From a bacterium (GTDB taxonomy: Bacteria; Thermodesulfobiota; Thermodesulfobiia; Thermodesulfobiales; Thermodesulfobiaceae), in contig JAJXTU010000009.1 of NCBI GenBank assembly GCA_021783475.1, positions 1 to 37,981 on the forward strand: DNA of 37,981 nucleotides, in the 5' to 3' direction. Positions 24,481-37,891 of this stretch are shown piece after piece; position 1 is the first letter of the stretch, and every line of letters begins with the position of its first letter. The translations under genes were made by a program, and so were the position numbers. The notes under the pieces were generated by a model, which saw only the letters and a list, made by a program, of their open reading frames with translations, made no database searches and was not told the origin of the DNA.

Positions 24481-24572
24481 GGAGAGGTGTCCGAGTGGCC
24501 GAAGGAGACCGCCTCGAAAGCGGTTAGCTGATTAATTTCGGCTCGTGGGTTCAAATCCCACCCTCTCCGCCA
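24481..24572 (+). tRNA. tRNA-Ser (anticodon CGA)
   Basis: GGAGAGG (24481-24487) pairs with CCTCTCC (24562-24568), followed by discriminator G and an encoded CCA. The anticodon stem ACCGC/GCGGT encloses CTCGAAA, giving anticodon CGA at 24515-24517 (codon UCG). The T arm is GTGGG-TTCAAAT-CCCAC, and a long class II variable arm lies between 24525 and 24544, as expected for serine. All arms fold without mismatch in the acceptor stem. Confidence 0.97.
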
Positions 24573-24598
24573 AAAAAATATTACAAGAGGTGTTGTTC

Positions 24599-24805
24599 TT
24601 GAGACAGAATAGAAATGTTGATTTTTTTCTTTTAGGGACGCTGACAGGAAGCTTGGCTTTTTTTATCGTCTCTTTTATGCTTTGCTCAGGGAAGCTCGAT
24701 GTTAGTCTTCAACCTGAAACAATTAACTCAAAAAATAGAGATCCCAAAGATCTATTAAAAAACATTGACTCACGGTTAAAGGAACTTGAAAAAGCAAAGC
24801 TTTAA
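24599..24805 (+). CDS. Small single-helix membrane protein leading the polyphosphate operon
   Basis: About 68 residues: a short basic N-terminus (MRQNRN), one transmembrane helix (FFLLGTLTGSLAFFIVSFML), then a charged tail with PKDLLKNIDSRLKELEKAKL, which could form a short coiled coil. TTG 24599 is chosen because AAGAGG lies about 8 bases ahead. The frame runs back into the tRNA, so upstream starts are not credible. The start is 26 bases after the tRNA CCA and the stop is 5 bases before the next gene. I do not recognise the family; it superficially recalls YtxH-like small proteins. It could tether operon products to the membrane, which is inference. Confidence 0.55.
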   Translation: MRQNRNVDFFLLGTLTGSLAFFIVSFMLCSGKLDVSLQPETINSKNRDPKDLLKNIDSRLKELEKAKL

Positions 24806-24810
24806 CACCC

Positions 24811-26385
24811 ATGGATAAAAGTGAAGACAGCAACTCTTATGTCAAGGAAGCTAAAAAAACAGAAAGTAAAATAATTGGAATTATCGACATAGGAGCTAAT
24901 TTTGTAAAAGCCCATATAGCCCAGAAAAAAAACGATAGAATATTCGAAACAATCGAAGACATAAAAAAACCCCTTTCGATCGGCAAGGATACCTTTTCAA
25001 TAGGCAGAATTTCAAACACAATACTTCTCCAATTAACAAAAATACTCAAGGAATTAAAGGATTTGTTTAAAGCTTACGAGGTGGAAGAAACCTTGGTTTT
25101 TGCCTCTACCGCTATCAGGGAAGCAAAAAATTGTGATTTCATAGTTGAAAGAATAAAAATTGCTACAGGAATAGACATTAAACTAATAGAAACAATCGAA
25201 GAGTCTTTTTATAAGTATCAATATATGAAAAGACATGACTGCTATCTCAGGCTGTTCGGCAATAAATCAGTTTTAATTTTTGATATAGGTTCTGGTGGAC
25301 TTTCCCTAATGATAGTAGAAAGGGACAAACTCAAATATGCGTCAAATCTTGAAATAGGATCGCTAAAATTAAGAGCGCTGCTCTCAAGCCTTGAAAGAGA
25401 AACGCTTGATTTTGCAGAGATACTGGATGAGTTCATAGAAAGTAAGATGCACACCATATCACAGGAGATAAAAAAATATAAAATAGATTTTGCAATTGGA
25501 CTTGGAGGAGAAAGCAAAGTAATTTACAATCTAATCTTTGAAGAAGAGCCCCCAAGGGATATTAGCAACATAAACAAAGAAAAACTTTTGAAATTTTATA
25601 ACGAAATTAAAGACAAGACTACAATTAACCTTGTTGAAGACTATTATTTAATGCCTCCAGTTGCTAATGTTCTTTTACCATCAACTATTATCTTTAAAAA
25701 GATATTAGATATTTGCGAAATTAATGAAGTTGGGATTATGGGTTTCTCCTTTAGGAGCGCAGTGGCGAATTCAATCCTGATGGACGAAGACGCTCTTTAC
25801 GAAGAGGACATATTAAGCGTTTCAGAGAGTATTGCAAAAAAATATTTAAGAAATATTAATATGTCTCACAACATTCTGAGATTTGCTGTCTCGATTTTTG
25901 ACTACACCAAAAGTTATCACGCAATGGGAGACAAAGAAAGACTTCTATTAAAGATAGGCTGCATTTTGCATGACGTTGGAAAGTTTATAGACGTAAACGA
26001 TCCAGGAGCACACTCATATAACATTATAAGTTCCGCAAAGATTCCAGGGCTCAGCAGCGAGGAAAGAGACATCATCGCAAATTCAGTTAAGATATACCAG
26101 AAAAGAGATCCTGATGAAAAAGATTGTTCATTTAGTTGCAAAACTATTAAAGATAGGCTAACCATAACAAAAATAGCCGCTATATTAAAGCTTTCCAACG
26201 CTCTTGATTCCTCACAAAAGGGTAAAATTAACGACATAAAATTAGAGATTGAAGAGCATTATCTGATATTTAGAGCCTTTACTCATGACGATATCCTCCT
26301 TGAAAAGTGGCATTTTGATAATGAATCTATTTTTTTTAGAAGAATTTTTGGCCTTATTCCTGTTTTAAAAGTTATTCCGCAATGA
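24811..26385 (+). CDS. Divergent Ppx/GppA-family protein with C-terminal HD domain
   Basis: This 524-residue protein has the Ppx/GppA order: an actin-like N-terminal half (IIDIGANFVKAHIA, FASTAIREAKNCDF, IETIEESFYKY, LIFDIGSGGLSLMIV) and a C-terminal HD-type helical domain (CILHDVGKF, His387-Asp388). Compared with active exopolyphosphatases the loops are altered. DLGSNS is DIGANF (26-31), and DIGGGSTE is DIGSGGLS (158-165), so the metal-binding Glu becomes Ser165. The Glu pair 130-131, near the usual catalytic base, remains. The first HD-domain His seen in the sister gene is also missing, and the S.G.LREG motif is lost. It may be a regulatory or altered-specificity paralogue. The stop overlaps ppk by 4 bases (ATGA). 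Confidence 0.82.
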   Translation: MDKSEDSNSYVKEAKKTESKIIGIIDIGANFVKAHIAQKKNDRIFETIEDIKKPLSIGKDTFSIGRISNTILLQLTKILKELKDLFKAYEVEETLVFASTAIREAKNCDFIVERIKIATGIDIKLIETIEESFYKYQYMKRHDCYLRLFGNKSVLIFDIGSGGLSLMIVERDKLKYASNLEIGSLKLRALLSSLERETLDFAEILDEFIESKMHTISQEIKKYKIDFAIGLGGESKVIYNLIFEEEPPRDISNINKEKLLKFYNEIKDKTTINLVEDYYLMPPVANVLLPSTIIFKKILDICEINEVGIMGFSFRSAVANSILMDEDALYEEDILSVSESIAKKYLRNINMSHNILRFAVSIFDYTKSYHAMGDKERLLLKIGCILHDVGKFIDVNDPGAHSYNIISSAKIPGLSSEERDIIANSVKIYQKRDPDEKDCSFSCKTIKDRLTITKIAAILKLSNALDSSQKGKINDIKLEIEEHYLIFRAFTHDDILLEKWHFDNESIFFRRIFGLIPVLKVIPQ

Positions 26386-28547
26386 TCAGAGAAAGAATTT
26401 ACAACATAAATAGAGAGCTATCTCTTTTAGAATTCAACAAGAGAGTGCTTGAGGAAGCGAAAGATGGCAGTAACAAACTCTTTGAAAGGCTAAAATTTCT
26501 GTCCATAGTTAGCTCAAATATGGACGAGTTCTTTATGATCAGAGTAAGCTCAATCATAGATAAGGTGCTCGACGATTTCGTATTTCAGGACTCATCAGGT
26601 TTGACTCCTGAAGAACTTTACAAAGAAATTACCTTAAAAGCTCACCAGATATCTCAAGATCAGCAAACTCTTTTTTTGGAAGAACTCATGCCTCTTTTGA
26701 AAAAAAACAACATAAATATATTAAAAATCAATGAATTAAACCCAAACCAGCTAAAATTTGTACAAAAATACTACAAAAACACTATTTATCCAGTACTAAC
26801 CCCTATGGCTGTGGATAGCTCAAGGCCATTCCCCTTTATTCAGAGCAGAACCCTAAACATATTTGTTTTATTAAGATCAAATTCCGATTACCTTGTGAAA
26901 AATAAAAACCAAAAACTTAAAAAAGAAGATGTTTTCGCAATAATTCAGGTGCCAGGCGTCTTAGACAGATTTATTTCCCTGCCCTCTGATAAAAACAGTT
27001 ATAGCTATATACTTTTAGAAGACATAATAACCCACCACTTAGGCGACCTCTTTAACAACCAAGAAATTGTCTACAATTCACTCTTCAGGATCACAAGAGA
27101 TGCCGATCTCACTATAGACGAACAAATTGCAGAAGATATATTAGAAGAAATAGAAAAGTCTTTAAAAAGAAGAAGATACGGCGAGGTAGTTAAGCTTGAA
27201 ATAAGTAAAGATTGCCCTGAAATTTTAGAAAATTTTTTAAAAGACAATTTCGAACTTGACGAGGAAGATGTATATAAAATAGATGGACCATTAGATTACA
27301 CATTCCTGATGAAGTTTTCCAGTCAAGAAATTGCAGCATTCAAAAGTCTTAAGGACATCCCTTTACAGCCAGTAAAGCCAATCGATTTCTTGACAGCTGA
27401 CAATACAACCATATTCGATCTGATAAAAGAAAGAGATCTCTTGCTGCATACCCCGTTTGAGAGCTTTGAAAAGATTATAGAATTTGTTCGCACAGCAGCA
27501 CAAGATCCAGATGTTCTCGCAATAAAAATGACACTATATAGAGTCACGAAAAATTCCCCAATAGTAAAAGCCCTTGAAGAAGCTGCGGACAATGGCAAGC
27601 AGGTAACAGTAGTTATTGAGCTAAAAGCTCGTTTTGACGAAGAAAACAATATTATATGGGCCAAAAAGCTCGAAAAAGCAGGCTGTCATGTAGTATATGG
27701 ACTCGCCCACTTAAAGGTCCACTCAAAGGCCATTCTAATTGTCAGAAAAGAAGAGGGTACAATAAGAAGATACGTGCATCTTGGAACTGGAAATTACAAT
27801 GAAAACACTGCAAAGATTTACACAGACCTCAGCCTGTTTACCAGCAATGTCTACTTTGGAACAGATGTGTCAAATCTTTTCAACACGCTGACAGGGCTCT
27901 CCCAGCCAAGTCACTGGTATAAAATAGGGGTTTCACCCATCAATTTAAGAGAGAAAATAATTAGATTGATAAAAAGAGAGTCAAAATATCGCTCTAACGG
28001 ACACATTATAGCTAAAATGAACGCCTTAGTAGATGATGAAATAGTAAAAGAGCTCTATCTCGCATCGATAGAGGGTGTAAAAATAGATTTAATCGTGAGA
28101 GGTATATGCTGCTTAAGGCCCAGCATAAAAGAAATCAGCGAGAACATAAGAGTAATTAGCATTGTCGGCAGATTTCTTGAACACAGCAGAATATTTTACT
28201 TCAAAAATGATTCAAATGAAGAGATATATCTTTCAAGCGCCGACTGGATGCCAAGAAATCTTGACAGAAGGATAGAATCAATTTTTCCTGTTGAGAGCGA
28301 AGCATTAAAGGAGAGAATCAAAAAGTGCCTAAACATAATGTTAAAAGACAACGTAAAAGCCAGAGAACTCAATGAAGACGGGAGTTATATTAGAGTCCCT
28401 AAAAATTCACAAAATCAAATAGATAGCCAAATGCTCCTATATGAAACAATATTAAAAAGTGCTGAAGTCAAGAACAAAGAAATCAAGACGATAAAGAGTA
28501 TGGAATTCGTCCCCATCCAAAACTTTGATGACGAGACAGCAACATAA
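26382..28547 (+). CDS. ppk: Polyphosphate kinase 1
   Basis: The 721-residue PPK1 has the N-terminal NRELSLLEFNKRVLEEA (10-26) and SSNMDEFFMIRV (44-55). The catalytic domain contains the autophosphorylated His447 in KVHSKAIL (E. coli His435 equivalent), YVHLGTGNYNENTAKIYTDLSLFT (465 onward) and the second conserved His601 in LEHSRIFYF. It makes long-chain polyphosphate reversibly from ATP, at the inner membrane in known bacteria. ATG 26382 is coupled to the preceding stop. The length is slightly above the usual 690 and all landmark residues are present, so it should be active. It is flanked by two Ppx/GppA paralogues, an arrangement placing synthesis and breakdown in one transcript. Confidence 0.96.
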   Translation: MIRERIYNINRELSLLEFNKRVLEEAKDGSNKLFERLKFLSIVSSNMDEFFMIRVSSIIDKVLDDFVFQDSSGLTPEELYKEITLKAHQISQDQQTLFLEELMPLLKKNNINILKINELNPNQLKFVQKYYKNTIYPVLTPMAVDSSRPFPFIQSRTLNIFVLLRSNSDYLVKNKNQKLKKEDVFAIIQVPGVLDRFISLPSDKNSYSYILLEDIITHHLGDLFNNQEIVYNSLFRITRDADLTIDEQIAEDILEEIEKSLKRRRYGEVVKLEISKDCPEILENFLKDNFELDEEDVYKIDGPLDYTFLMKFSSQEIAAFKSLKDIPLQPVKPIDFLTADNTTIFDLIKERDLLLHTPFESFEKIIEFVRTAAQDPDVLAIKMTLYRVTKNSPIVKALEEAADNGKQVTVVIELKARFDEENNIIWAKKLEKAGCHVVYGLAHLKVHSKAILIVRKEEGTIRRYVHLGTGNYNENTAKIYTDLSLFTSNVYFGTDVSNLFNTLTGLSQPSHWYKIGVSPINLREKIIRLIKRESKYRSNGHIIAKMNALVDDEIVKELYLASIEGVKIDLIVRGICCLRPSIKEISENIRVISIVGRFLEHSRIFYFKNDSNEEIYLSSADWMPRNLDRRIESIFPVESEALKERIKKCLNIMLKDNVKARELNEDGSYIRVPKNSQNQIDSQMLLYETILKSAEVKNKEIKTIKSMEFVPIQNFDDETAT

Positions 28548-28548
28548 C

Positions 28549-30075
28549 ATGGGAAAACGATTATCTGTAATAGACCTTGGCTCAAACTCTATAAGACTGG
28601 GAATTATAGAAGTTAACGAGGATAAGAGCTTTAGAATACTGGAGGAAAAAAAAGAGCAAGTCAGGTTGTCAGAAGGATTCTACAAGAGTAACTTCATCCA
28701 GGAAAGGCCCATTAGAAGAGCCATCCAAACGCTTAAGACTTTTAAGAAGATTATTGAATTTTATGACACAAAAAAAGTTATAGCTGTAGCTACAGCATGT
28801 ATTAGAAATTCAAAAAACGGAAAAGACGTCTTAGATCTGATCTTTAAAGAGACACTCATAACCTTTAAAACCATCTCTGAAAAAGAAGAATCATATTATG
28901 GCTACCTTGGAGCCTTAAATACAATTAACTTAAGAGACTTCATACTTGCAGACACTGGAGGCGCCAGCACTGAGATTACTCTTGTAAGAGACAGAAAGAT
29001 AGTCAATTTTGTTTCGATTCCCTATGGAAGCGTAAACCTTACAGACATGTTTTCAGAAACAAAAGAAATATGTGACACAAAAAATATAGAAAATTTTTTG
29101 AAAAAAGAACTTCAAAATATTCCATGGTTAAAAGACGTTAAAGTATCAGGAATGCCAATTGTGGGAATAGGAGGATCAAATAGGACATTTGCAAAGATAC
29201 ACAGAGCTCTTCATAAATGGTTTTCACTAAAGCTGCACCATTATGAGTTGACAAAAAATGAGGTTTTTCAAATATATTCATATATTGCGAATTTAAGTTC
29301 AAAAAATAGAAAAAATATAGATGGCCTCTCAAAACAAAGATCTGACATCATTTTAGCAGGAATGGCTCCTTTAAAGGTCTTATTCGACACAATAAATTCG
29401 GACAAATTTGTTGTTAGTGGAAATGGCCTTAAGGAAGGGTTAATTTTTGATTCGTTAAGCAACGACTTTAAGATTTATCCTTTAATATACGAAAATATTT
29501 TGGATAATAGTCTGCTAAATATTGCTAATTTATATTTTTTGGATAAAAACCACGCAAACAGAGTTACCCACCACAGCCTATCAATATTCGACCAGACAAA
29601 GCCCCGTCACAATTTCGATGAAAATGATAGGAAGTTATTAGAAATAGCATCCTTTTTACACGACATCGGAAAGTATGTAGATCCTTACAACCATGCAAAA
29701 CATAGCGCATATCTAATCCAAAACCTTCCCATATACGGAGTAAACCCAAAAGATCTAATAAGATGTTCATATATTTCCCTATTTCACGAAAATAAAATCA
29801 AATTTCAACAACTTCCAAATGAATCCTTTATATCTGAAAAACAATTTAAAGATATCATAAAACTTTCGATATTTTTAAGGCTCGCTGAACAGATAGAAAC
29901 TTGCGAATGCGCTGCAATAAAATCTGTAACGATCAATATAAGAAATAATGAAGTACTGCTTAAATTAAGAAAAAATTATGAAGAATATGACACAGAAACC
30001 GAAATTATAGAGCTCTCAAAGTCAAGCAAGGTTTTCAAAAAATTCTTTAAAAAAACCTTAACAATAGCAAGATAG
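28549..30075 (+). CDS. ppx: Exopolyphosphatase / guanosine pentaphosphatase (Ppx/GppA) with HD domain
   Basis: The 508-residue protein has intact Ppx/GppA motifs: VIDLGSNSIRLGI (7-19), ATACIRNSKNG, SEKEESYYGYLG with the catalytic Glu near 113-114, ADTGGASTEITLV (134-146), GIGGSNRTFAKIH and VSGNGLKEGLIFD. The C-terminal HD domain has the full set THHSLSIFD, FLHDIGKYVDP (His371-Asp372) and AKHSAYLI. It should hydrolyse terminal phosphates of polyphosphate and/or pppGpp; the two activities cannot be told apart here. ATG 28549 begins one base after the ppk stop. TTG 28525 and ATG 28528 lie inside ppk and have no better SD. Confidence 0.93.
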   Translation: MGKRLSVIDLGSNSIRLGIIEVNEDKSFRILEEKKEQVRLSEGFYKSNFIQERPIRRAIQTLKTFKKIIEFYDTKKVIAVATACIRNSKNGKDVLDLIFKETLITFKTISEKEESYYGYLGALNTINLRDFILADTGGASTEITLVRDRKIVNFVSIPYGSVNLTDMFSETKEICDTKNIENFLKKELQNIPWLKDVKVSGMPIVGIGGSNRTFAKIHRALHKWFSLKLHHYELTKNEVFQIYSYIANLSSKNRKNIDGLSKQRSDIILAGMAPLKVLFDTINSDKFVVSGNGLKEGLIFDSLSNDFKIYPLIYENILDNSLLNIANLYFLDKNHANRVTHHSLSIFDQTKPRHNFDENDRKLLEIASFLHDIGKYVDPYNHAKHSAYLIQNLPIYGVNPKDLIRCSYISLFHENKIKFQQLPNESFISEKQFKDIIKLSIFLRLAEQIETCECAAIKSVTINIRNNEVLLKLRKNYEEYDTETEIIELSKSSKVFKKFFKKTLTIAR

Positions 30076-30184
30076 GAAAATATCCCCAAGATAAGTTATA
30101 ATATTGAAATTGAGCGCATCATCCAAAGTTAAAATACTTTTTAGAGCTTCTTGGCCAAATATTGATCCACAAAAGGGAGGAAAA

Positions 30185-31705
30185 ATGAACACAAATATAG
30201 AAATTGAGCTAAAGCTTAGATGCATTTTTCCTGAAAAAATCGATGAGATTTACTCTCTTCCGTTGTTTTCTAACATAAAAGATGAATGGAAGAAAAAAGA
30301 GATTCGTTCTGTATATTACGACACGGCTGAAAACATTTTTTTAAATTCAGGAATGTCTCTCAGAACAAGACTGGAAGATGGCGAATGGACTCAGACTATT
30401 AAGGTTGCAGGAAATTCGAATGGGGGTTTTTCCAGGAGAAAAGAGTACAACGTCTCAATCCAGGAAGGCAAACCAGACTTAACAGTATTAAAAGATTCAT
30501 CACTAAAGAACTTTTTTAAAGACACGAAATCCAAATTCGAACTCACACCAATGTTCGAAACAGTTTTTGAAAGAAGCGTAGCCCTTTATACCTATAGCGA
30601 CGAAAGCGTGCTGGAGTTGGCAGTTGACAGGGGAAAAATTGTTTCAGGCGATAAAAATGAAGACTTCTGCGAGGTGGAAATAGAGCTTAAAGAAGGCAAT
30701 ATTTCTTCCATCCTAAAACTTGCAGAAGACCTCTCAAAATCAGTTAGTTTTCTATTGGAACCTAAAAGTAAGTATTACAGAGGTATCTTGCTTGCAAATC
30801 TGGAACCAAAATATGAAATCCAAAAGGAAAGAGATCCTGATATAATAGCTGAAGAAGGTTTGCAAAATGAGTTAACAGAAAAACTTCAAAATTTAATCCT
30901 ATATCACAATAGATTCGTAGAAAACCCAGAAAATTTTGATAATCTTCACAATTTTAGGGTATCTCTTAGAAAAATTAGAACCATATTGAAGTTCGGAAAA
31001 CCATTAATAGAAAAAGACGATCTAAACCACTGGTTAGAACAATTTGACCAGATTACAGAATTGACCAATCCACTTAGAGAGACAGATGTATTAATTGAAG
31101 ATTGGAGGAGCTTCCTTGCTATAACCAAGCGCGATGACCTTAAAAACTCCATTCTTACAAAAAAGCTTCTTGAAGAGAGACAACGCAAATTAGACTTAAT
31201 ATACCCTTATTTTTCCGAAGGAAAGTTTACCAATATATTTCTTGGTCTTTGGTACTGGCTATTAGAGGGGGCTTTTCTGATAGATGATTCAGCTACTTTA
31301 AGACTAAAGAAGTTTGCTAAAGAAAGACTAAATATATGGTTCAGAAAAACTTTGAAGAAATTGAAGAAAACAGATTTTAACAATGAGCGCGATCTTCACA
31401 AACTGAGAATTGCAACCAAAGATCTCAGGTATTCTTTAGAGGTGTTTTCTTTTGCGTTAAAATCTGACACAAAGGATATGATTTCAAAACTAAAAAAAAT
31501 TCAAGATATATTGGGATATATTCACGATACCCAAACCTTTTCAGTTTATCTTGAAAGCTTGATCTCATCATCAGATAACCCTGAAATTTACAAAGAAAGC
31601 GGTTGGCTTTTGGGTTACAGGCTCCATAGCGATCAAAGTCTCAAAAGCGATTTGGAGAAACAATGGAAAAAATTTAAAGAGCAAATAAAGGCCTTTATTG
31701 AGTAG
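30185..31705 (+). CDS. CYTH-CHAD domain protein (triphosphate tunnel metalloenzyme plus polyphosphate-binding domain)
   Basis: About 506 residues in two modules. The N-terminal CYTH domain (about 1-200) starts with the hallmark ExExK, here EIELK (6-10), and contains YYDTAE, LRTRLEDGEWTQTIK and FCEVEIELKEG, which line the triphosphate tunnel. The C-terminal CHAD domain (about 235-500) shows its repeated basic helices: LHNFRVSLRKIRTILKFG and DLHKLRIATKDLRYSLEVF. CHAD domains bind polyphosphate and CYTH enzymes cleave triphosphate or short polyphosphates, so this fits an operon built around PPK1. ATG 30185 is chosen for GGGAGG 4-5 bases upstream; a TTG at 30104 is less likely. The 109-base gap before it contains TATAAT at 30097-30102, a possible internal promoter. 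Confidence 0.92.
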   Translation: MNTNIEIELKLRCIFPEKIDEIYSLPLFSNIKDEWKKKEIRSVYYDTAENIFLNSGMSLRTRLEDGEWTQTIKVAGNSNGGFSRRKEYNVSIQEGKPDLTVLKDSSLKNFFKDTKSKFELTPMFETVFERSVALYTYSDESVLELAVDRGKIVSGDKNEDFCEVEIELKEGNISSILKLAEDLSKSVSFLLEPKSKYYRGILLANLEPKYEIQKERDPDIIAEEGLQNELTEKLQNLILYHNRFVENPENFDNLHNFRVSLRKIRTILKFGKPLIEKDDLNHWLEQFDQITELTNPLRETDVLIEDWRSFLAITKRDDLKNSILTKKLLEERQRKLDLIYPYFSEGKFTNIFLGLWYWLLEGAFLIDDSATLRLKKFAKERLNIWFRKTLKKLKKTDFNNERDLHKLRIATKDLRYSLEVFSFALKSDTKDMISKLKKIQDILGYIHDTQTFSVYLESLISSSDNPEIYKESGWLLGYRLHSDQSLKSDLEKQWKKFKEQIKAFIE

Positions 31706-31709
31706 TCAT

Positions 31710-33557
31710 ATGGATGCAGCCTCATATTTTCTGAAATTAGCTAACCAAAAATCACTATTTATATCAGGGAAAATAGATATAGGAGCTATTGATCTTGCGT
31801 CTTGCTCGAATGATAACAAATTTGTCGGACTCTCATCGAAAGGAAATTACAGCTTATATTCCATTTTTGAAAATAAAATAGCTAAAACTTGGCAAGACGC
31901 ATCCTCTTCGAAAATATTTATAAATTCAAAAAATTCTACCATATACCAAACTCTATCTGGTCAAATAAAAATTATTGATTTTGATGAATCAGACCCTAAA
32001 ACAGTTTCATCAGACATAGCCTTAGCCGATTTCAATGATAAATATATTGTCAGTTGTTCTGAATCAAATATATTAGCTCTTACCGAGATCGATAACCCAA
32101 GCAATATAAAAAATATACGCCTACCTGATAATTTTAAAGTAAAGGATATAGTATTAAAAAATAACGCTCTGCTAATTGGTGAGACAAATAACCGCGTTTT
32201 TTTCATAATATATGAATTACATTCGAGAACTCTGCCGCAACCCCAAAGTGTTCCAGATGGCAGCGTTTATGTTGGATCTTCTGACGACTTTGAATACATT
32301 GCATTCAGATCTGACAACGCAGGCCTAAATATATTCAACACAAAAGATCCATCAAAATCTTACAATATACCTATTGTAGAATCAAAAACCAAAAGGGTGT
32401 ATTTCTCAAAAGACAAAACTCTTATTGTAATAGTTGATTTCGACGAATACATCAGCTTTTGGTGGACGAATAAAGAACTTAATACAGGTAATGAACCAAT
32501 TTTCAAACAAAAAATTTGCGGCAACCCCTTAGGATTAACTTTTAGCGAAAACGGAAACGTTTCATCCTTAATGACTTACAAAAATAATTTTTTAAAAATT
32601 TGGCTTCCTGCCAGTAAAACAGATAGACTTGAATTGACTGCAAACTTTAAATCAGATGAAAGCGACTCGTTTTTGCACAACGGATATTTTCTTGACTCTG
32701 TATCGTTTACAGAAAAAAATGAAGCTGTTTGTCTTTTCATAAAACCAAGGTGGGAATCAAAGATATTGAAATTTGATTTATATAATAGACTGAACATAAA
32801 CTATGAAAATGTATTTAAGGAATCCTTAGTAAATTCTGGAATCTTATCAAATAATTCCAAACTTTTAGCCACTTTAAGAAACAAAAATAAAATAAAAATT
32901 ATCAATACCCAATCAAATAGCACAATTCAAGAATTTGCTATAAAAGATGAATCAATTAACACGCTTTGTTTCTCTCCAGATCAAAGATTTCTGATACTTG
33001 GAGGCTCTACCCTAAGAATTTGGTCTATCGATAAAGAGATAATTGTAAAGTCAATTTTTCCAGAGCACCCCGTTAGTTTTGTAGCCGTCTCTCCAAACAG
33101 CGACTTGATAGCTTTTAGTCAAAAGATCAGAGATAATATAATATTAAGCGTACTGGATTTAAATACAAAAGAAGTAAAAAGAAAATTCGATGGCTTAAAT
33201 AATGTAAATTCCTTAGTATTTTCACCAAATAGTAAGTTTTTATTTGTGGGCTCTACAAAAAAAGATCCTTTAATAAGAGCATATTCAGTTGATACGGGTA
33301 ATCAGGTATTTTCTTATCAAACGAATTATATCGATGTCAATGATATGTGCATTAGTTCGAGCGGAACACATCTCTTTTTTGGTGGTTCAGATGAAAAAAT
33401 ATACGTATTTGATCTCAGAAAAACCAAAATTATAAAAATTCTTAATGGACATTACGATATTATTAAAAAGATTAGCATATCCGAAAATGATAGATTTTTA
33501 ATTTCATCGTCAAACGATGAAAGATTATGTGTTTGGAAGGTGGCCGACTATATTTAA
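31710..33557 (+). CDS. WD40-like beta-propeller protein in the polyphosphate operon
   Basis: About 615 residues with no signal peptide or membrane helix, so probably cytosolic. The C-terminal third shows clear WD40-type repeats, for example INTLCFSPDQRFLILGGS, VNSLVFSPNSKFLFVGS and IKKISISENDRFLISSSNDE, ending in LCVWKV. The first 400 residues contain more diverged repeats (ALADFNDKYIVSCSESN, VYFSKDKTLIVIVDFDEYIS), enough for one complete propeller or two. WD40 propellers usually form interaction platforms. ATG 31710 lies 4 bases after the CYTH-CHAD stop; the TTG at 31698 overlaps it and lacks an SD. Location at the tail of a polyphosphate operon suggests a scaffolding or sensing role, which is inferred. 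Confidence 0.72.
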   Translation: MDAASYFLKLANQKSLFISGKIDIGAIDLASCSNDNKFVGLSSKGNYSLYSIFENKIAKTWQDASSSKIFINSKNSTIYQTLSGQIKIIDFDESDPKTVSSDIALADFNDKYIVSCSESNILALTEIDNPSNIKNIRLPDNFKVKDIVLKNNALLIGETNNRVFFIIYELHSRTLPQPQSVPDGSVYVGSSDDFEYIAFRSDNAGLNIFNTKDPSKSYNIPIVESKTKRVYFSKDKTLIVIVDFDEYISFWWTNKELNTGNEPIFKQKICGNPLGLTFSENGNVSSLMTYKNNFLKIWLPASKTDRLELTANFKSDESDSFLHNGYFLDSVSFTEKNEAVCLFIKPRWESKILKFDLYNRLNINYENVFKESLVNSGILSNNSKLLATLRNKNKIKIINTQSNSTIQEFAIKDESINTLCFSPDQRFLILGGSTLRIWSIDKEIIVKSIFPEHPVSFVAVSPNSDLIAFSQKIRDNIILSVLDLNTKEVKRKFDGLNNVNSLVFSPNSKFLFVGSTKKDPLIRAYSVDTGNQVFSYQTNYIDVNDMCISSSGTHLFFGGSDEKIYVFDLRKTKIIKILNGHYDIIKKISISENDRFLISSSNDERLCVWKVADYI

Positions 33558-33574
33558 TCGAAAAGGGTTGTTTG

Positions 33575-34399
33575 ATGAGCATTAACTTAGAAGACTTTTT
33601 TAAGGGGATCAATAGAGAAATTCAATCCAATAACTTTGAAGAGGCGCTAAACAAGTCCAATTATCTGCTTAGCCTCATTGAAGCAAACGAAGTTGAATTT
33701 GACACGGAGTTTTTAATAAAACTTCTTGACACCAGGAGCTTTATCCTTACAATCATGGGCAACAATGCACAAGCGCTTGAAGACATAAACAGGGCAATAG
33801 AAGAAAAAAACGGCATTTCCTCAACCAGCGACGATCAATTAGCGAAGCTTTTAATACACAGGGGACTAAATTATTTCTATTTAGGAAACCACATATCCTC
33901 GTTAAAAGACTTCAATACTGCTATAGAAATATTAAGCTCCTCTGCCGACAAAGAATCGACTAAACTGCCACAGGTATTTTTAAACAGAGGTGCATTGCTC
34001 AAGAAACAGGGGTTAAGAAAGGAATCGTTAGAAGACATAAATAAAGCAATTTCTCTTCTAACCAAGATTAACAACTCAAAATCTATACCTATATTAATAA
34101 ATGCGCTGATAGAGAAGGGGCTGCTCCTAATGGAGGAAGAGAAATTTTTTGAGTCTGCATACAATTTTGACCTGGCAATCTCAAAATCCAGACAGCTCTT
34201 AACCACAGAAAAATTGAAGATTTTAGGCACTCATATGAGATTAATTTACTATTTAATAATAACCAATCTCGCAGCAGGAAAGCATCAAGACCCCATAAAC
34301 AAGCTCTTGATGGAAGCCAAGAGTGTTGTCACTAATTATGGAGCCAATGAAGAAACAAGCTATTGGCTAAATAAAATCGGTGAAATTACAGCTATTTAA
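33575..34399 (+). CDS. TPR-repeat protein, last gene of the polyphosphate operon
   Basis: About 274 residues made largely of tetratricopeptide-like helix pairs. Recognisable units include LDTRSFILTIMGNNAQALEDINRAIEE, LIHRGLNYFYLGNHISSLKDFNTAIE and FLNRGALLKKQGLRKESLEDINKAI. A less clear fourth unit runs around LIEKGLLLMEEEKFFESAYNFDLAIS. No signal peptide or membrane segment is visible, so it is likely a cytosolic adaptor. ATG 33575 is preferred because AAAAGGG (33561-33567) ends 7 bases before it; upstream in-frame starts fall inside the WD40 gene. Its last 4 bases overlap the convergent SH3 gene, leaving no room for a separate terminator. No partner can be named from sequence. Confidence 0.75.
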   Translation: MSINLEDFFKGINREIQSNNFEEALNKSNYLLSLIEANEVEFDTEFLIKLLDTRSFILTIMGNNAQALEDINRAIEEKNGISSTSDDQLAKLLIHRGLNYFYLGNHISSLKDFNTAIEILSSSADKESTKLPQVFLNRGALLKKQGLRKESLEDINKAISLLTKINNSKSIPILINALIEKGLLLMEEEKFFESAYNFDLAISKSRQLLTTEKLKILGTHMRLIYYLIITNLAAGKHQDPINKLLMEAKSVVTNYGANEETSYWLNKIGEITAI

Positions 34400-35898
34400 T
34401 AAAATCTAATATATTGAGACGAAATATATCCTTCAGCGCCATTTTTCGTCTTTACCTTGTACCAAACGCTTTCGTTTGCAAGACGAGTATCTGACTTTGG
34501 AATATAAACTTCTACATTTTCCTTGTCAAGTCTTGCCTGGTACATCATGCCCACAGTATCTTTAATTGAAAATCCCTCCCCAACATAGATTTTTACATCT
34601 TTGCTACCATCCACACTCTTAACTGTGGAGTCGTTCATTACCACGCCCTCTCTAACCTGTGAGGGATCTATCTTCTCAAGGACGTCTACTTCATCACCAT
34701 AAGAAAGCCCTGCGGCATCTTCAGCAGACTCATACGGAGATTTTTTCAGATGGATCTGGTATCTTATCACGAATGCCTTCGCAAACATCTTTTCACTGCT
34801 CGAATTTTCACTCTCATTTGTATTATTATTAGTGCCGCCTGGCTCAACAGTTACTTTTACAGGAGTGGACTCTGCGTAATTTCCTGCCTTATTTACCGCT
34901 ACTGCCTGAAACACAAAACTGCCAATCTTTTCTGGATACCATCTATAAACAGTATCCTCACCAGCATACCAGACTTTAATAGTAAGGTTATTCATAAGCA
35001 GCCTTACCTTATCTATACCCTTTTTATCTGTAGCATTCACTCTTATCTCAAGGGGATTATTTACACCTTTAACCACAGTATCGTTCACTGGACTCTGAAT
35101 AACAACCCTTGGAGGAGTAGTATCAGGAGGTTCATGAGCAGTAGTGATCTGAAAAAACATAAACGTACCAAATGTTAGCAACAAGGATATAAAAAAGGCA
35201 ACAAGCGGTATTATATAGGAGACTGGCTTCGTTGGATGAAGGCTCTCTATCTTCGGCTCTTGAGATTTCTCTTTTTTGAACTTTAAAATAGAAGCAAAGC
35301 TTGATAGATTAATGCTCCCAAAAACCTTAGAAATCTTTTTCAGATTAGAAAAAGGGTTTGGAATTTTTAAAACAAGTTTGGATTCATAAACCTTTTGTAT
35401 CCAAGATCGCGCCCTTTTACGTTTTTCATCAAGGAGATCGCTTTCGGTCTGAGAGGGCTCTGGTATAACCTCAGAAACTATGCCCTCCTGAAATGACTCT
35501 TCAAGAGATTGTTCCTCAGCAGGCTGGACATCGACATTTCCCTGGATCTCATCGCTTGGGGCTAATTCTACGGGGTTTTCAGCAGCCTTGTCTTTAAGGG
35601 TAGAAATATCAATGCCTGTTTTCGTCACATAAGGAGAGAAGGCAAGGAGGTCTAAGTAGGACCTTTCATCAGCTTGCAACAATATACTTGTTTCATCCTG
35701 AAAATAGATCCTAAAAATAAAAGTTTTAATATTCTTTTTTATAAAGGGTAAAAAAGATTTCTCTTTCTCGAATACCTCTTCAACCCATTCAATATGGGAA
35801 ATGCTGTCCTTTAGGGCAAAAGCTCTCCCATCGGAAGAGACAATGTGTGAACCCTTCCGTTCGATTACAATATTAGAAGGCTCAAGTGAGCGAAGCAC
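34396..35898 (-). CDS. Single-pass membrane protein with Ig-like and SH3-type extracytoplasmic domains
   Basis: A 500-residue protein with a clear inside-out plan. Residues 1-110 form a cytoplasmic domain of unknown family. An acidic linker (about 110-160) and a basic region (160-225) follow, then one transmembrane helix (about 226-250). Outside the membrane there is an Ig-like/Big-type domain (TPPRVVIQSPVNDTVVKG onward, 261-352), an Asn/Ser-rich spacer (355-370), and a C-terminal SH3b-like region with YQIHLKKSPY, WYKVKTKNGAEGYISSQYI at the end. SH3b domains often bind cell-wall material. GTG 35898 follows AAGGGTGG. It is divergent from the diguanylate cyclase and converges on the TPR gene. 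Overall function is unknown. Confidence 0.72.
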   Translation of the reverse strand: MLRSLEPSNIVIERKGSHIVSSDGRAFALKDSISHIEWVEEVFEKEKSFLPFIKKNIKTFIFRIYFQDETSILLQADERSYLDLLAFSPYVTKTGIDISTLKDKAAENPVELAPSDEIQGNVDVQPAEEQSLEESFQEGIVSEVIPEPSQTESDLLDEKRKRARSWIQKVYESKLVLKIPNPFSNLKKISKVFGSINLSSFASILKFKKEKSQEPKIESLHPTKPVSYIIPLVAFFISLLLTFGTFMFFQITTAHEPPDTTPPRVVIQSPVNDTVVKGVNNPLEIRVNATDKKGIDKVRLLMNNLTIKVWYAGEDTVYRWYPEKIGSFVFQAVAVNKAGNYAESTPVKVTVEPGGTNNNTNESENSSSEKMFAKAFVIRYQIHLKKSPYESAEDAAGLSYGDEVDVLEKIDPSQVREGVVMNDSTVKSVDGSKDVKIYVGEGFSIKDTVGMMYQARLDKENVEVYIPKSDTRLANESVWYKVKTKNGAEGYISSQYIRFY

Positions 35899-35968
35899 GT
35901 TACCACCCTTCTTTTACATATACCTTATATTATAGTATTATAGACTAAAAATTCTAATGGAGAAAACT

Positions 35969-37891
35969 TTGAGCATAAGAAATTATCTTAAAATAATAAT
36001 AATCTTTTTAGTTATTACTCCATTGTTAATCTTAAGCTTAGTTGCAGTAAATTTATATAACGAAACCAAAAACAGATCGATAAACGATCTAATCCAGGAG
36101 ACAACCCTAAAACAGTTTACGATTCAAACATACCTTCAGAAATATACAGGCCTCATTAATTTATTATCGGCAAATATTTCACTTACAAACAACAATTATG
36201 AAAAAATAAATTATATATTTAAAGAGCTATCATCTGACAGTGAAATAGAAAATCTATACTTTGTAAGTCCTGATGGCTATAGTAACGTAGAACTAAGTGG
36301 TCCTCATCACATTTCATTTAATAGTGATGATCTATTTAAAGATGCCATGAAAGGAGATGAAGGGTTTTTAATAAAAAGTGATGATCTAAATAGTTATCTA
36401 TATATTTCAAAACCTGTTTACAGGAGCAACAATCAAGTATCTGGCGTAGTATTTGAAATCATAAAACTAACAAAGTTAGAAGACCTGATAAACATCCAAA
36501 ATGTCCTAAACAGCCAATCTACATTTCTTTTTTCAAACGATAAGGTGATATTGGGAAATCAACAGAAAAGTATGCCAACAAATCTTTCTAAAAAAATTGA
36601 TATTGCTAAGGGCAGCGGCCTAATAAATTATAAAAACGAGACAGGCAAGAATTTTATCTTATATTGGAAGAATTTCCCAAATCTAAATCTCTCAATAGCC
36701 TCTCAAATTGACGAAAACTATATTTTCGAACAGTTTAAACAGGATTTCGCAGTTGTAATAATTACTTTTCTGATAATATTTATTACATCGTTAATTATAT
36801 CAATCATAATGGTTAAAAAGATTGAAGAGCCAATAAGTTTTTTACAAAGTTTGTCCCAGAAAATAAAAGAAGGAAATTATAAAACAAGAGTAGGACAAAG
36901 CTTCATAGCAAGCTCACCTGAAGAGTTTCAACCCCTATTAAAGTTATACAACCAAATGAGCATCTCAATAGAGAGCTATATATCTAAATTAAACGAGCAA
37001 TCCAAGGCCCTTGCTAAAAGTGAAGCAAGGTATAGAGCAGTAGTGGAAGACCAAACAGACCTACTTTGTAGATTTCAAAAAGATGGCACTATAACATTTT
37101 CAAATGAAGCTTTCAAGAACTATCTAAACCTTGTGGAATCAGAAAAATATAATTTATTTGAACTCTTACAGGAAGATGCAAGTAACATAAAGGGCTTATT
37201 AGAGGCCTTAGACAATGAAACTCAATATAGAAGCATTGAATTAGCCTTTGAAAAAGGAGGAGTAAAGAGATATTTCGATTGGACATTCAGAATGATTTAT
37301 AAAGACGACGCATTGGAGTTCCAGGGTACAGGACACGACATCAATGAAATAAAAAAGCTTGAAGAAGAGCTCAGATACCAAAGCTTCCATGATAACCTAA
37401 CAGGACTGCTAAATAGAGCATATTTTGAAGAAGAATTTGAAAGGTTATCAAGCGGGAGGTTTAGCCCCACATCGATAATAGTAGCCGACGTTGACAACTT
37501 AAAGGTAGTAAATGACCTTCTGGGACACGACAAGGGGGACTTATTGATAATAAGGGCTTCAAAAATATTACAAGCAAACTTTAGAAACACAGATATAGTT
37601 GCAAGAATTGGCGGAGATGAGTTTGTAATTCTATTGCCGTTTTGCCCTTTAGAATGCGTAGAAGATCTCATAAAGAGGCTGGACAACAGTATAAGAGTAG
37701 CAAATAAAGAAGCTGACAGCCTTTACTTGAGCATATCAATTGGATACGCAAATGCAAAAGGGCCATTTAATAAAGTAGATCTATTTAAAGAAGCTGACAC
37801 AAAAATGTATCTGAACAAGAAATCACATCACGAAAAAGCAAAAGAGATAGCTATTAAAAGAATTAAAAATATAATACATAACAAAATATAA
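35969..37891 (+). CDS. Membrane sensor diguanylate cyclase (HAMP-PAS-GGDEF)
   Basis: About 640 residues. A first transmembrane helix is followed by a Cache-like periplasmic sensor (about 30-260), a second helix, a HAMP-type segment (KKIEEPISFLQSLSQKIKEGNY), a PAS domain (about 350-465) and a C-terminal GGDEF domain. The active-site motif ARIGGDEF is intact, and an RxxD inhibitory site (RNTD) lies five residues before GGDEF, so c-di-GMP synthesis with product feedback is expected. There is no EAL domain. TTG 35969 is preferred because GGAG (35959-35962) ends 6 bases before it; ATG 35957 has no SD and would add four residues. It shares a 58-70 base divergent promoter region with the SH3 protein. 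Confidence 0.93.
   Translation: MSIRNYLKIIIIFLVITPLLILSLVAVNLYNETKNRSINDLIQETTLKQFTIQTYLQKYTGLINLLSANISLTNNNYEKINYIFKELSSDSEIENLYFVSPDGYSNVELSGPHHISFNSDDLFKDAMKGDEGFLIKSDDLNSYLYISKPVYRSNNQVSGVVFEIIKLTKLEDLINIQNVLNSQSTFLFSNDKVILGNQQKSMPTNLSKKIDIAKGSGLINYKNETGKNFILYWKNFPNLNLSIASQIDENYIFEQFKQDFAVVIITFLIIFITSLIISIIMVKKIEEPISFLQSLSQKIKEGNYKTRVGQSFIASSPEEFQPLLKLYNQMSISIESYISKLNEQSKALAKSEARYRAVVEDQTDLLCRFQKDGTITFSNEAFKNYLNLVESEKYNLFELLQEDASNIKGLLEALDNETQYRSIELAFEKGGVKRYFDWTFRMIYKDDALEFQGTGHDINEIKKLEEELRYQSFHDNLTGLLNRAYFEEEFERLSSGRFSPTSIIVADVDNLKVVNDLLGHDKGDLLIIRASKILQANFRNTDIVARIGGDEFVILLPFCPLECVEDLIKRLDNSIRVANKEADSLYLSISIGYANAKGPFNKVDLFKEADTKMYLNKKSHHEKAKEIAIKRIKNIIHNKI

Follow-up and report, generated by a model that had tools for sequence, protein, structure and literature searches.

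A ppk1-linked Ppx/GppA paralogue without its catalytic glutamate, a probable partner of polyphosphate kinase in a Thermodesulfobiaceae bacterium

The closest described counterpart of the genes discussed here is the polyphosphate cluster of the Lactobacillaceae. As excerpts of a review recount, its commonest gene order is ppx1-ppk1-ppx2, and its Ppx1 is substituted at catalytic residues (PMC12248826). The same source, telling the work of Corrales et al. 2024, reports that Lacticaseibacillus paracasei (Lc. paracasei) BL23 no longer accumulates polyphosphate once ppx1 is deleted in frame, and does so again upon complementation; it also states that proteins of Clostridia and Negativicutes share with Ppx1 a 'Cluster II' of suggested Ppk1 activators. 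CHAD genes are likewise known in polyphosphate operons, near ppk or ppx, according to parts of PMC6537752, PMC8003754 and PMC10892726. In this context, we analyzed a run of seven genes from a bacterium of the family Thermodesulfobiaceae (GenBank assembly GCA_021783475.1). The window is the whole stretch studied, positions 1 to 37,981 of contig JAJXTU010000009.1. The strongest signal in it, which an initial annotation of the locus did not see, is that its changed Ppx paralogue, called PpxA here, is a member of a widespread family tied to ppk.

Like the Lactobacillaceae cluster as excerpted, the run has a substituted Ppx of the four-domain type directly upstream of ppk1, and an intact ppx after it, so that in domains, substitutions and gene position PpxA agrees with 'Cluster II' Ppx1. 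It differs from that cluster in that the second Ppx, PpxB, is of the long HD type, in contrast to the two-domain Ppx2, and in the addition of a CYTH-CHAD protein, a WD40 protein, a TPR protein and a membrane peptide. The present phylum, from which no other genus was drawn, also lies outside the taxa named for Cluster II in those excerpts. The open reading frames (ORFs) and Pfam matches give the following order:

24599-24805, plus strand: 68-aa membrane peptide, hydrophobic along one stretch (TTG taken as the start; GTG 24590 or TTG 24593 possible)
24811-26385, plus strand: ppxA, Ppx/GppA-HD paralogue without the catalytic Glu (Pfam, alignments, trees)
26382-28547, plus strand: ppk1, polyphosphate kinase 1 (Pfam, both active-site His present)
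28552-30075, plus strand: ppxB, Ppx/GppA-HD protein with the catalytic Glu (Pfam, alignment)
30185-31705, plus strand: CYTH-CHAD fusion, YgiF-like triphosphatase and polyphosphate-binding domain (Pfam, PDB matches)
31710-33557, plus strand: WD40 protein (Pfam, own profile)
33575-34399, plus strand: TPR protein, final gene of the run (Pfam)

PpxA scores above cut-off for Ppx-GppA (PF02541, 72.5 bits) and Ppx-GppA_III (PF21447, 63.1 bits), while its HD match reaches 16.8 bits, under the cut-off of 22. The column of the catalytic glutamate was set by alignment with PDB entries 6pc0 (wild type) and 6pc1 (E143A); there, Ser165 of PpxA (codon 25303-25305, plus strand) aligns with Glu143 of Helicobacter pylori GppA. 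The surrounding motif reads DIGSGGLS against DIGGGSTE, the loop GGGST having become GSGGL. A structural model built from three sequences has a mean predicted local distance difference test (pLDDT) score of 59, mostly 70-90 over residues about 20-320 and <50 in the C-terminal part, and its N-terminal part matches the Ppx of A. aeolicus (1t6c) with an E-value of 4.9e-23 and a template-modelling (TM) score of 0.81 by target. For comparison, 60 relatives were drawn, three of which (G001, G002 and G003) are of the same genus and the others related at domain level only. Within the genus PpxA is about as conserved as PPK1, with ratios of nonsynonymous to synonymous substitution rates (dN/dS) of 0.051 vs 0.033 against G002 and identities of 85.6% vs 86.8% to G001.

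PPK1 has four PPK domains and both active-site histidines, which align with His434 and His591 of the E. coli chain 1xdo, positions that we take to be native 435 and 592. In the part of PMC6537752 at hand, H435A and H592A PPK are described as catalytically impaired. PpxB matches Ppx-GppA with 180.8 bits, Ppx-GppA_III with 85.0 and HD with 24.9, keeps the catalytic Glu141 in the motif ADTGGASTE and reaches 257.9 bits for TIGR03706, under the cut-off of 307; its sequence predicts an active exopolyphosphatase/GppA. The CYTH-CHAD protein combines CYTH (67 bits) and CHAD (119 bits) in one chain, in the same domain order as E. coli YgiF and other CYTH-CHAD proteins, and matches PDB entries 5a60 and 6qv7. 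Its EIELK near the N-terminus fits the tunnel motif ExExK. The initial annotation had proposed PPK1, two unequal Ppx-HD paralogues, one of them 'changed', and a CYTH-CHAD fusion side by side; domains and positions agree with this, and the change can now be named as the glutamate that PpxA lacks and PpxB has.

We compared ppk loci more widely. Of 290 genomes, 79 gave a match to PPK (PF02503), 75 of them outside the genus with 76 loci, around each of which up to 20 kb was fetched, many of the stretches ending early at contig ends. Counting the window with these loci, long Ppx-HD proteins encoded immediately before ppk lack the catalytic glutamate in 10 of 13 cases, vs 0 of 16 for long ones elsewhere near ppk (p 1.4e-5, a guide only since the rows are related by descent). 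Short Ppx proteins, counted apart, comprise four with and three without the glutamate upstream of ppk, and eight with it plus two fragments elsewhere. A tree of 51 chosen rows places PpxA in a clade of 22 rows (bootstrap 100; Shimodaira-Hasegawa-like approximate likelihood ratio test, SH-aLRT, 98), in which 20 rows represent genes that lie upstream of ppk. The clade returns in two further trees, with 16 rows (support 96/92) and, in a 68-row tree that includes 17 later loci and omits L034, L036, L105 and one L094 protein, with 22 rows (SH-aLRT 99). Searching genome contigs with PpxA itself gave one locus only, L032 (Bacteroidota).

In the 51-row tree, built without Lc. paracasei Ppx1, PpxA groups with ppk-upstream proteins, and its sister is the Ppx that Acetoanaerobium noterae (Clostridia; L202, NZ_CP154629) encodes upstream of ppk (support 100/95); PpxB is sister to the other Ppx of that species (98/81). 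PpxA and PpxB thus sit in separate old groups, one A. noterae protein in each, which makes them an old pair and not the product of recent duplication. The A. noterae locus resembles the window also in that its altered-loop Ppx overlaps ppk by 4 bases; it differs in a kept glutamate, a second ppx on the other strand and no CHAD match within 13.5 kb. The record itself (NZ_CP154629.1), a 2.63-Mb sequence with 4 annotated features, is filed as A. noterae plasmid pTPELB2; it holds ppk and two ppx and looks like a chromosome. A tree of PPK repeats the subgroups of the PpxA clade (SH-aLRT 85, 98, 100 and 100), and G138 and G273, whose clade member is unlinked from ppk, are placed in the corresponding PPK subgroup; some of this agreement would follow from the shared ancestry of the species.

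The link between the two genes was also followed through presence and absence. With a profile of the PpxA clade and PF02503 for PPK, we searched the genomes as drawn in the class of G114, the phylum of G237 and the class of G020. Among these 90 genomes, 51 have both proteins, 38 neither, one PPK only and none the clade protein only, 'neither' standing for genomes that gave no match to the clade at E 1e-60, 1e-110 and 1e-90 for the three groups in turn. In the class of G114 the clade protein occurs in 37/47 genomes, PPK in 38/47 and both in 37/47; clade proteins score ≥438 bits there and ordinary Ppx ≤349, with the cut set after the gap was seen. The same 7/25 genomes have both in the phylum of G237, and the same 7/18 in the class of G020. 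The single PPK-only genome, G330, is a 57% complete assembly, and the absences include further incomplete ones (G351, 76%; G316, 88%). Species differ in presence within seven genera (g266, g267, g275, g278, g280, g18 and g271), and both genes co-vary in all of them except for G330 in g275. Wherever both occur the PpxA-type gene and ppk abut on one strand (51/51), and the glutamate is absent from all 44 clade proteins read of these 51. In the diverse sample, all 14 outgroup genomes with a clade protein have PPK, 12 of the 14 having first been found via their ppk loci.

Taken together, we consider it probable that PpxA is a non-hydrolysing partner or activator of PPK1, that PpxB and the CYTH-CHAD protein degrade and bind polyphosphate, and that the WD40 and TPR proteins are genus-specific additions. 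PpxA would have lost polyphosphate hydrolysis, as its missing glutamate suggests, and kept the Ppx/GppA-HD fold; the 4-base overlap of the ppxA stop with the ppk start points to coupled translation with PPK1. By analogy with the genetics of Lc. paracasei Ppx1, it may be a dedicated activator or a substrate-handling subunit that would form a complex with PPK1 and, holding polyphosphate or a nucleotide signal uncut, would allow or boost the kinase, the direction of the effect in this organism being taken from that analogy. PpxB would then be the working exopolyphosphatase/GppA that trims chains. The CYTH-CHAD protein, perhaps made from its own promoter, would bind polyphosphate through CHAD and cleave short chains or triphosphate through CYTH, and the WD40 and TPR proteins would be additions of the genus with a putative link to polyphosphate.

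Several observations weigh against this interpretation. PpxA retains Asp158, Glu131 and Arg103 and may therefore have some remaining or changed activity; the working part might also be its HD domain, in which the motif ILHDVGK is present. Its nearest named relative, the A. noterae Ppx, has a similarly altered loop (DIGSGGVE) yet keeps the glutamate; Lc. paracasei Ppx1 is absent from the tree rows; clade members L128 and L131 lie away from ppk; and at L047 the gene immediately before ppk encodes an ordinary Ppx with the glutamate. In the phylum of G275, where 16/149 genomes matched at E ≤ 1e-110, 11/16 keep the glutamate and 11/16 have ppk within 1.5 kb, so the clade is not uniformly dead and its ppk link is looser there. 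Ordinary Ppx, moreover, shows a near-identical pattern in the class of G114 (38 genomes, 37 with PPK plus G316 without), and adjacent genes can disappear through one deletion or one assembly gap; the operon thus appears to be kept or lost as a unit, which does not make the clade protein alone indispensable.

The retained residues and HD motif are what an alternative would build on, in which PpxA is still a phosphohydrolase with a changed substrate (e.g. pppGpp, a nucleotide or a substrate of the HD domain) that lies beside ppk to set a signal controlling PPK1. It draws further on the A. noterae protein with its glutamate and on the HD motif kept in 32 of 57 glutamate-less rows (a fragment and two genes entered twice are among the 57). 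Against this, loss of the glutamate is general in the three groups searched (44/44 sequences read), and in eight species of one genus (L163-L170; family f229, genus g275) the glutamate and the HD motif are both gone while the gene still sits between ppx and ppk, so that neither activity is needed there; we regard this alternative as unlikely. That PpxA is a functionless, decaying duplicate of ppxB, as the lost glutamate by itself would allow, is contradicted by its dN/dS of 0.051 and by the tree, in which the two fall in different old groups, and we give it practically no credence. More tentatively than for PpxA itself, and with slightly more doubt than belief, we propose that across at least three GTDB phyla, this genome's among them, PPK1 functions as one half of a two-protein enzyme whose dead Ppx-fold subunit is kept and lost with it, and whose database label 'exopolyphosphatase' is the opposite of its role. 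If proteins of the PpxA type are PPK1 partners, 'exopolyphosphatase' gene counts mislead, a knock-out of such 'ppx' genes would lower and not raise polyphosphate, and expression of PPK1 from these groups by itself may give a seemingly weak enzyme. The lone lactobacillus result would become a more general feature, directly testable by co-expression of PpxA and PPK1. Beyond the review PMC12248826, our search of the open-licence PMC literature for an inactive Ppx or Ppx pseudoenzyme found nothing.

The initial annotation had instead read all seven proteins as one organised machine that locates or senses polyphosphate, with the WD40 and TPR proteins as platforms. The packing it described is indeed there: all the ORFs and stated domains were found, and with the preferred starts the spacings in gene order are 5, -4, 4, 109, 4 and 17 bases. 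Purifying selection acts on all seven genes (dN/dS 0.03-0.16 against G002), which excludes a chance ORF pattern. Besides the values for ppk and ppxA, the ratios are 0.063 for CYTH-CHAD, 0.075 for TPR, 0.088 for ppxB and 0.161 for WD40. Gene order within the run is unchanged in G001 and G003, and in G002 it is split over two contigs at the CYTH-CHAD gene. However, collinearity with G001 and G003 extends to all 21 of the upstream window genes that were tested, so conserved order is no evidence for a link of WD40 and TPR with ppk, and we dropped it as support. Identity to G001 falls from ppk and ppxA to 79.9% for ppxB, 77.7% for CYTH-CHAD, 67.5% for WD40 and 67.2% for TPR; at about 67%, the last two are about as diverged as the pair of genes flanking the run downstream (66.5-69%), in contrast to the three upstream ones (75-90%).

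A possible dividing line lies within the run itself:

30090-30102, plus strand: GATAA...TATAAT block (alignment of the ppxB/CYTH-CHAD gap; possible internal promoter)

The 109-base gap, which holds only if CYTH-CHAD starts at ATG 30185, is much diverged between the window/G002, G001 and G003, yet this block and the ribosome-binding site are identical in the four genomes, which represent three distinct gap versions. We prefer ATG 30185 over the longer TTG 30104 because AAAGGGAGG precedes it and the G001 and G003 proteins begin nearby. The conserved TATAAT hints at an internal promoter and two transcription units and makes a single transcript of all seven genes doubtful, dividing CYTH-CHAD, WD40 and TPR from the ppk part. 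A promoter and terminator consensus scan was uninformative, with 42 promoter-like sites vs a mean of 43.3 in shuffles, and the block was not among its sites.

Outside the genus, the expectation that WD40 and TPR genes stay beside ppk fails. No same-strand WD40 gene was found at the 76 outgroup loci, a count made with our own profile; two WD40 genes occur there on the other strand, roughly 7 kb from ppk. A TPR gene directly follows ppk at one outgroup locus, L098, according to our own TPR profile, a weak one made from one protein. Pfam was run on 89 of the 91 other partner proteins encoded no more than three genes from ppk (the two omitted are very long); TPR families appear in 2 of the 89 among the matches listed, the 25 commonest of 180 families, a listing in which a lone WD40 match would go unseen. 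The L098 arrangement and the tight spacing of 4 and 17 bases leave something for the seven-protein machine, which we nevertheless hold to be very improbable. In the sample searched the combination PPK/Ppx/CHAD comes up repeatedly, and WD40 is confined to the genus. The WD40 protein has a clear C-terminal propeller and a weaker WD40-like N-terminal half; a fold model made without alignment (mean pLDDT 37) was left unused.

The core has several close relatives. CHAD lies on the same strand ≤4 kb from ppk at 16 of the 76 outgroup loci, and CYTH-CHAD, PPK and Ppx occur together in L055 (with a partial Ppx match), L072 and L080. Two Ppx with CHAD and PPK are found at six loci (L082, L094, L099, L104, L106 and L109), which resemble the window in carrying CHAD, Ppx, a glutamate-less Ppx and PPK in one run. 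They differ in order, with CHAD first and the Ppx pair before ppk, and no match to CYTH was found in their CHAD proteins, either by Pfam (L082, L099 and L106) or by our own CYTH profile, made from the best domain only (all six); in L094 the other Ppx is poorly conserved. Of the full set, for which the initial annotation knew no described system, the combination of PPK, Ppx and CHAD is published and recurs. A WD40 gene beside ppk was seen only in this genus among the loci searched, and no WD40 or TPR follower appears in the parts of the CHAD literature available (PMC6537752, PMC8003754, PMC10892726). The parts were thus known already; new are the genus as a member, the joint presence and absence over 90 genomes and the corrected idea of WD40 and TPR.

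Some neighbours of these loci may be recorded in their own right. A ROK-family gene lies directly upstream of the ppk-linked Ppx in L087 (12228-13247) and L091 (4946-6007); polyphosphate-using glucokinases belong to ROK. Genes for dCache methyl-accepting chemotaxis proteins stand directly before the ppk-linked Ppx in L098 (5562-7766) and L102 (5567-7762). Between CHAD and Ppx, an AAA/ParA-type ATPase gene occurs in L082 (5418-6173, by Pfam) and L106 (2054-2851, by its N-terminal sequence), and parA with ppk and CHAD is described for Acidithiobacillus in part of PMC10892726.

At its borders the run is framed by a tRNA gene and a convergent gene:

24481-24572, plus strand: tRNA-Ser(CGA) (ARAGORN; precedes the run in G001, G002 and G003 too)

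The interval first assigned to the cluster, 24481-34399, is right for the coding run, whereas its first 92 bases are this tRNA gene and lie outside the polyphosphate coding cluster. The 68-aa peptide has no Pfam match and shows 98.5% identity in G002 and 55% over 58 residues in G001. The TPR stop is overlapped by the convergent next gene (34396-35898, minus strand). From 34396 to 37891 the window encodes two proteins that are also conserved across the genus: this convergent one, with Ig-like and SH3-like matches, followed by a dCache-GGDEF protein. Elsewhere in the same genome, L027 (G000:C26) holds a second long WD40 protein, a 926-aa frame divergent from its neighbour, which we take to be a pyruvate-kinase-like gene.

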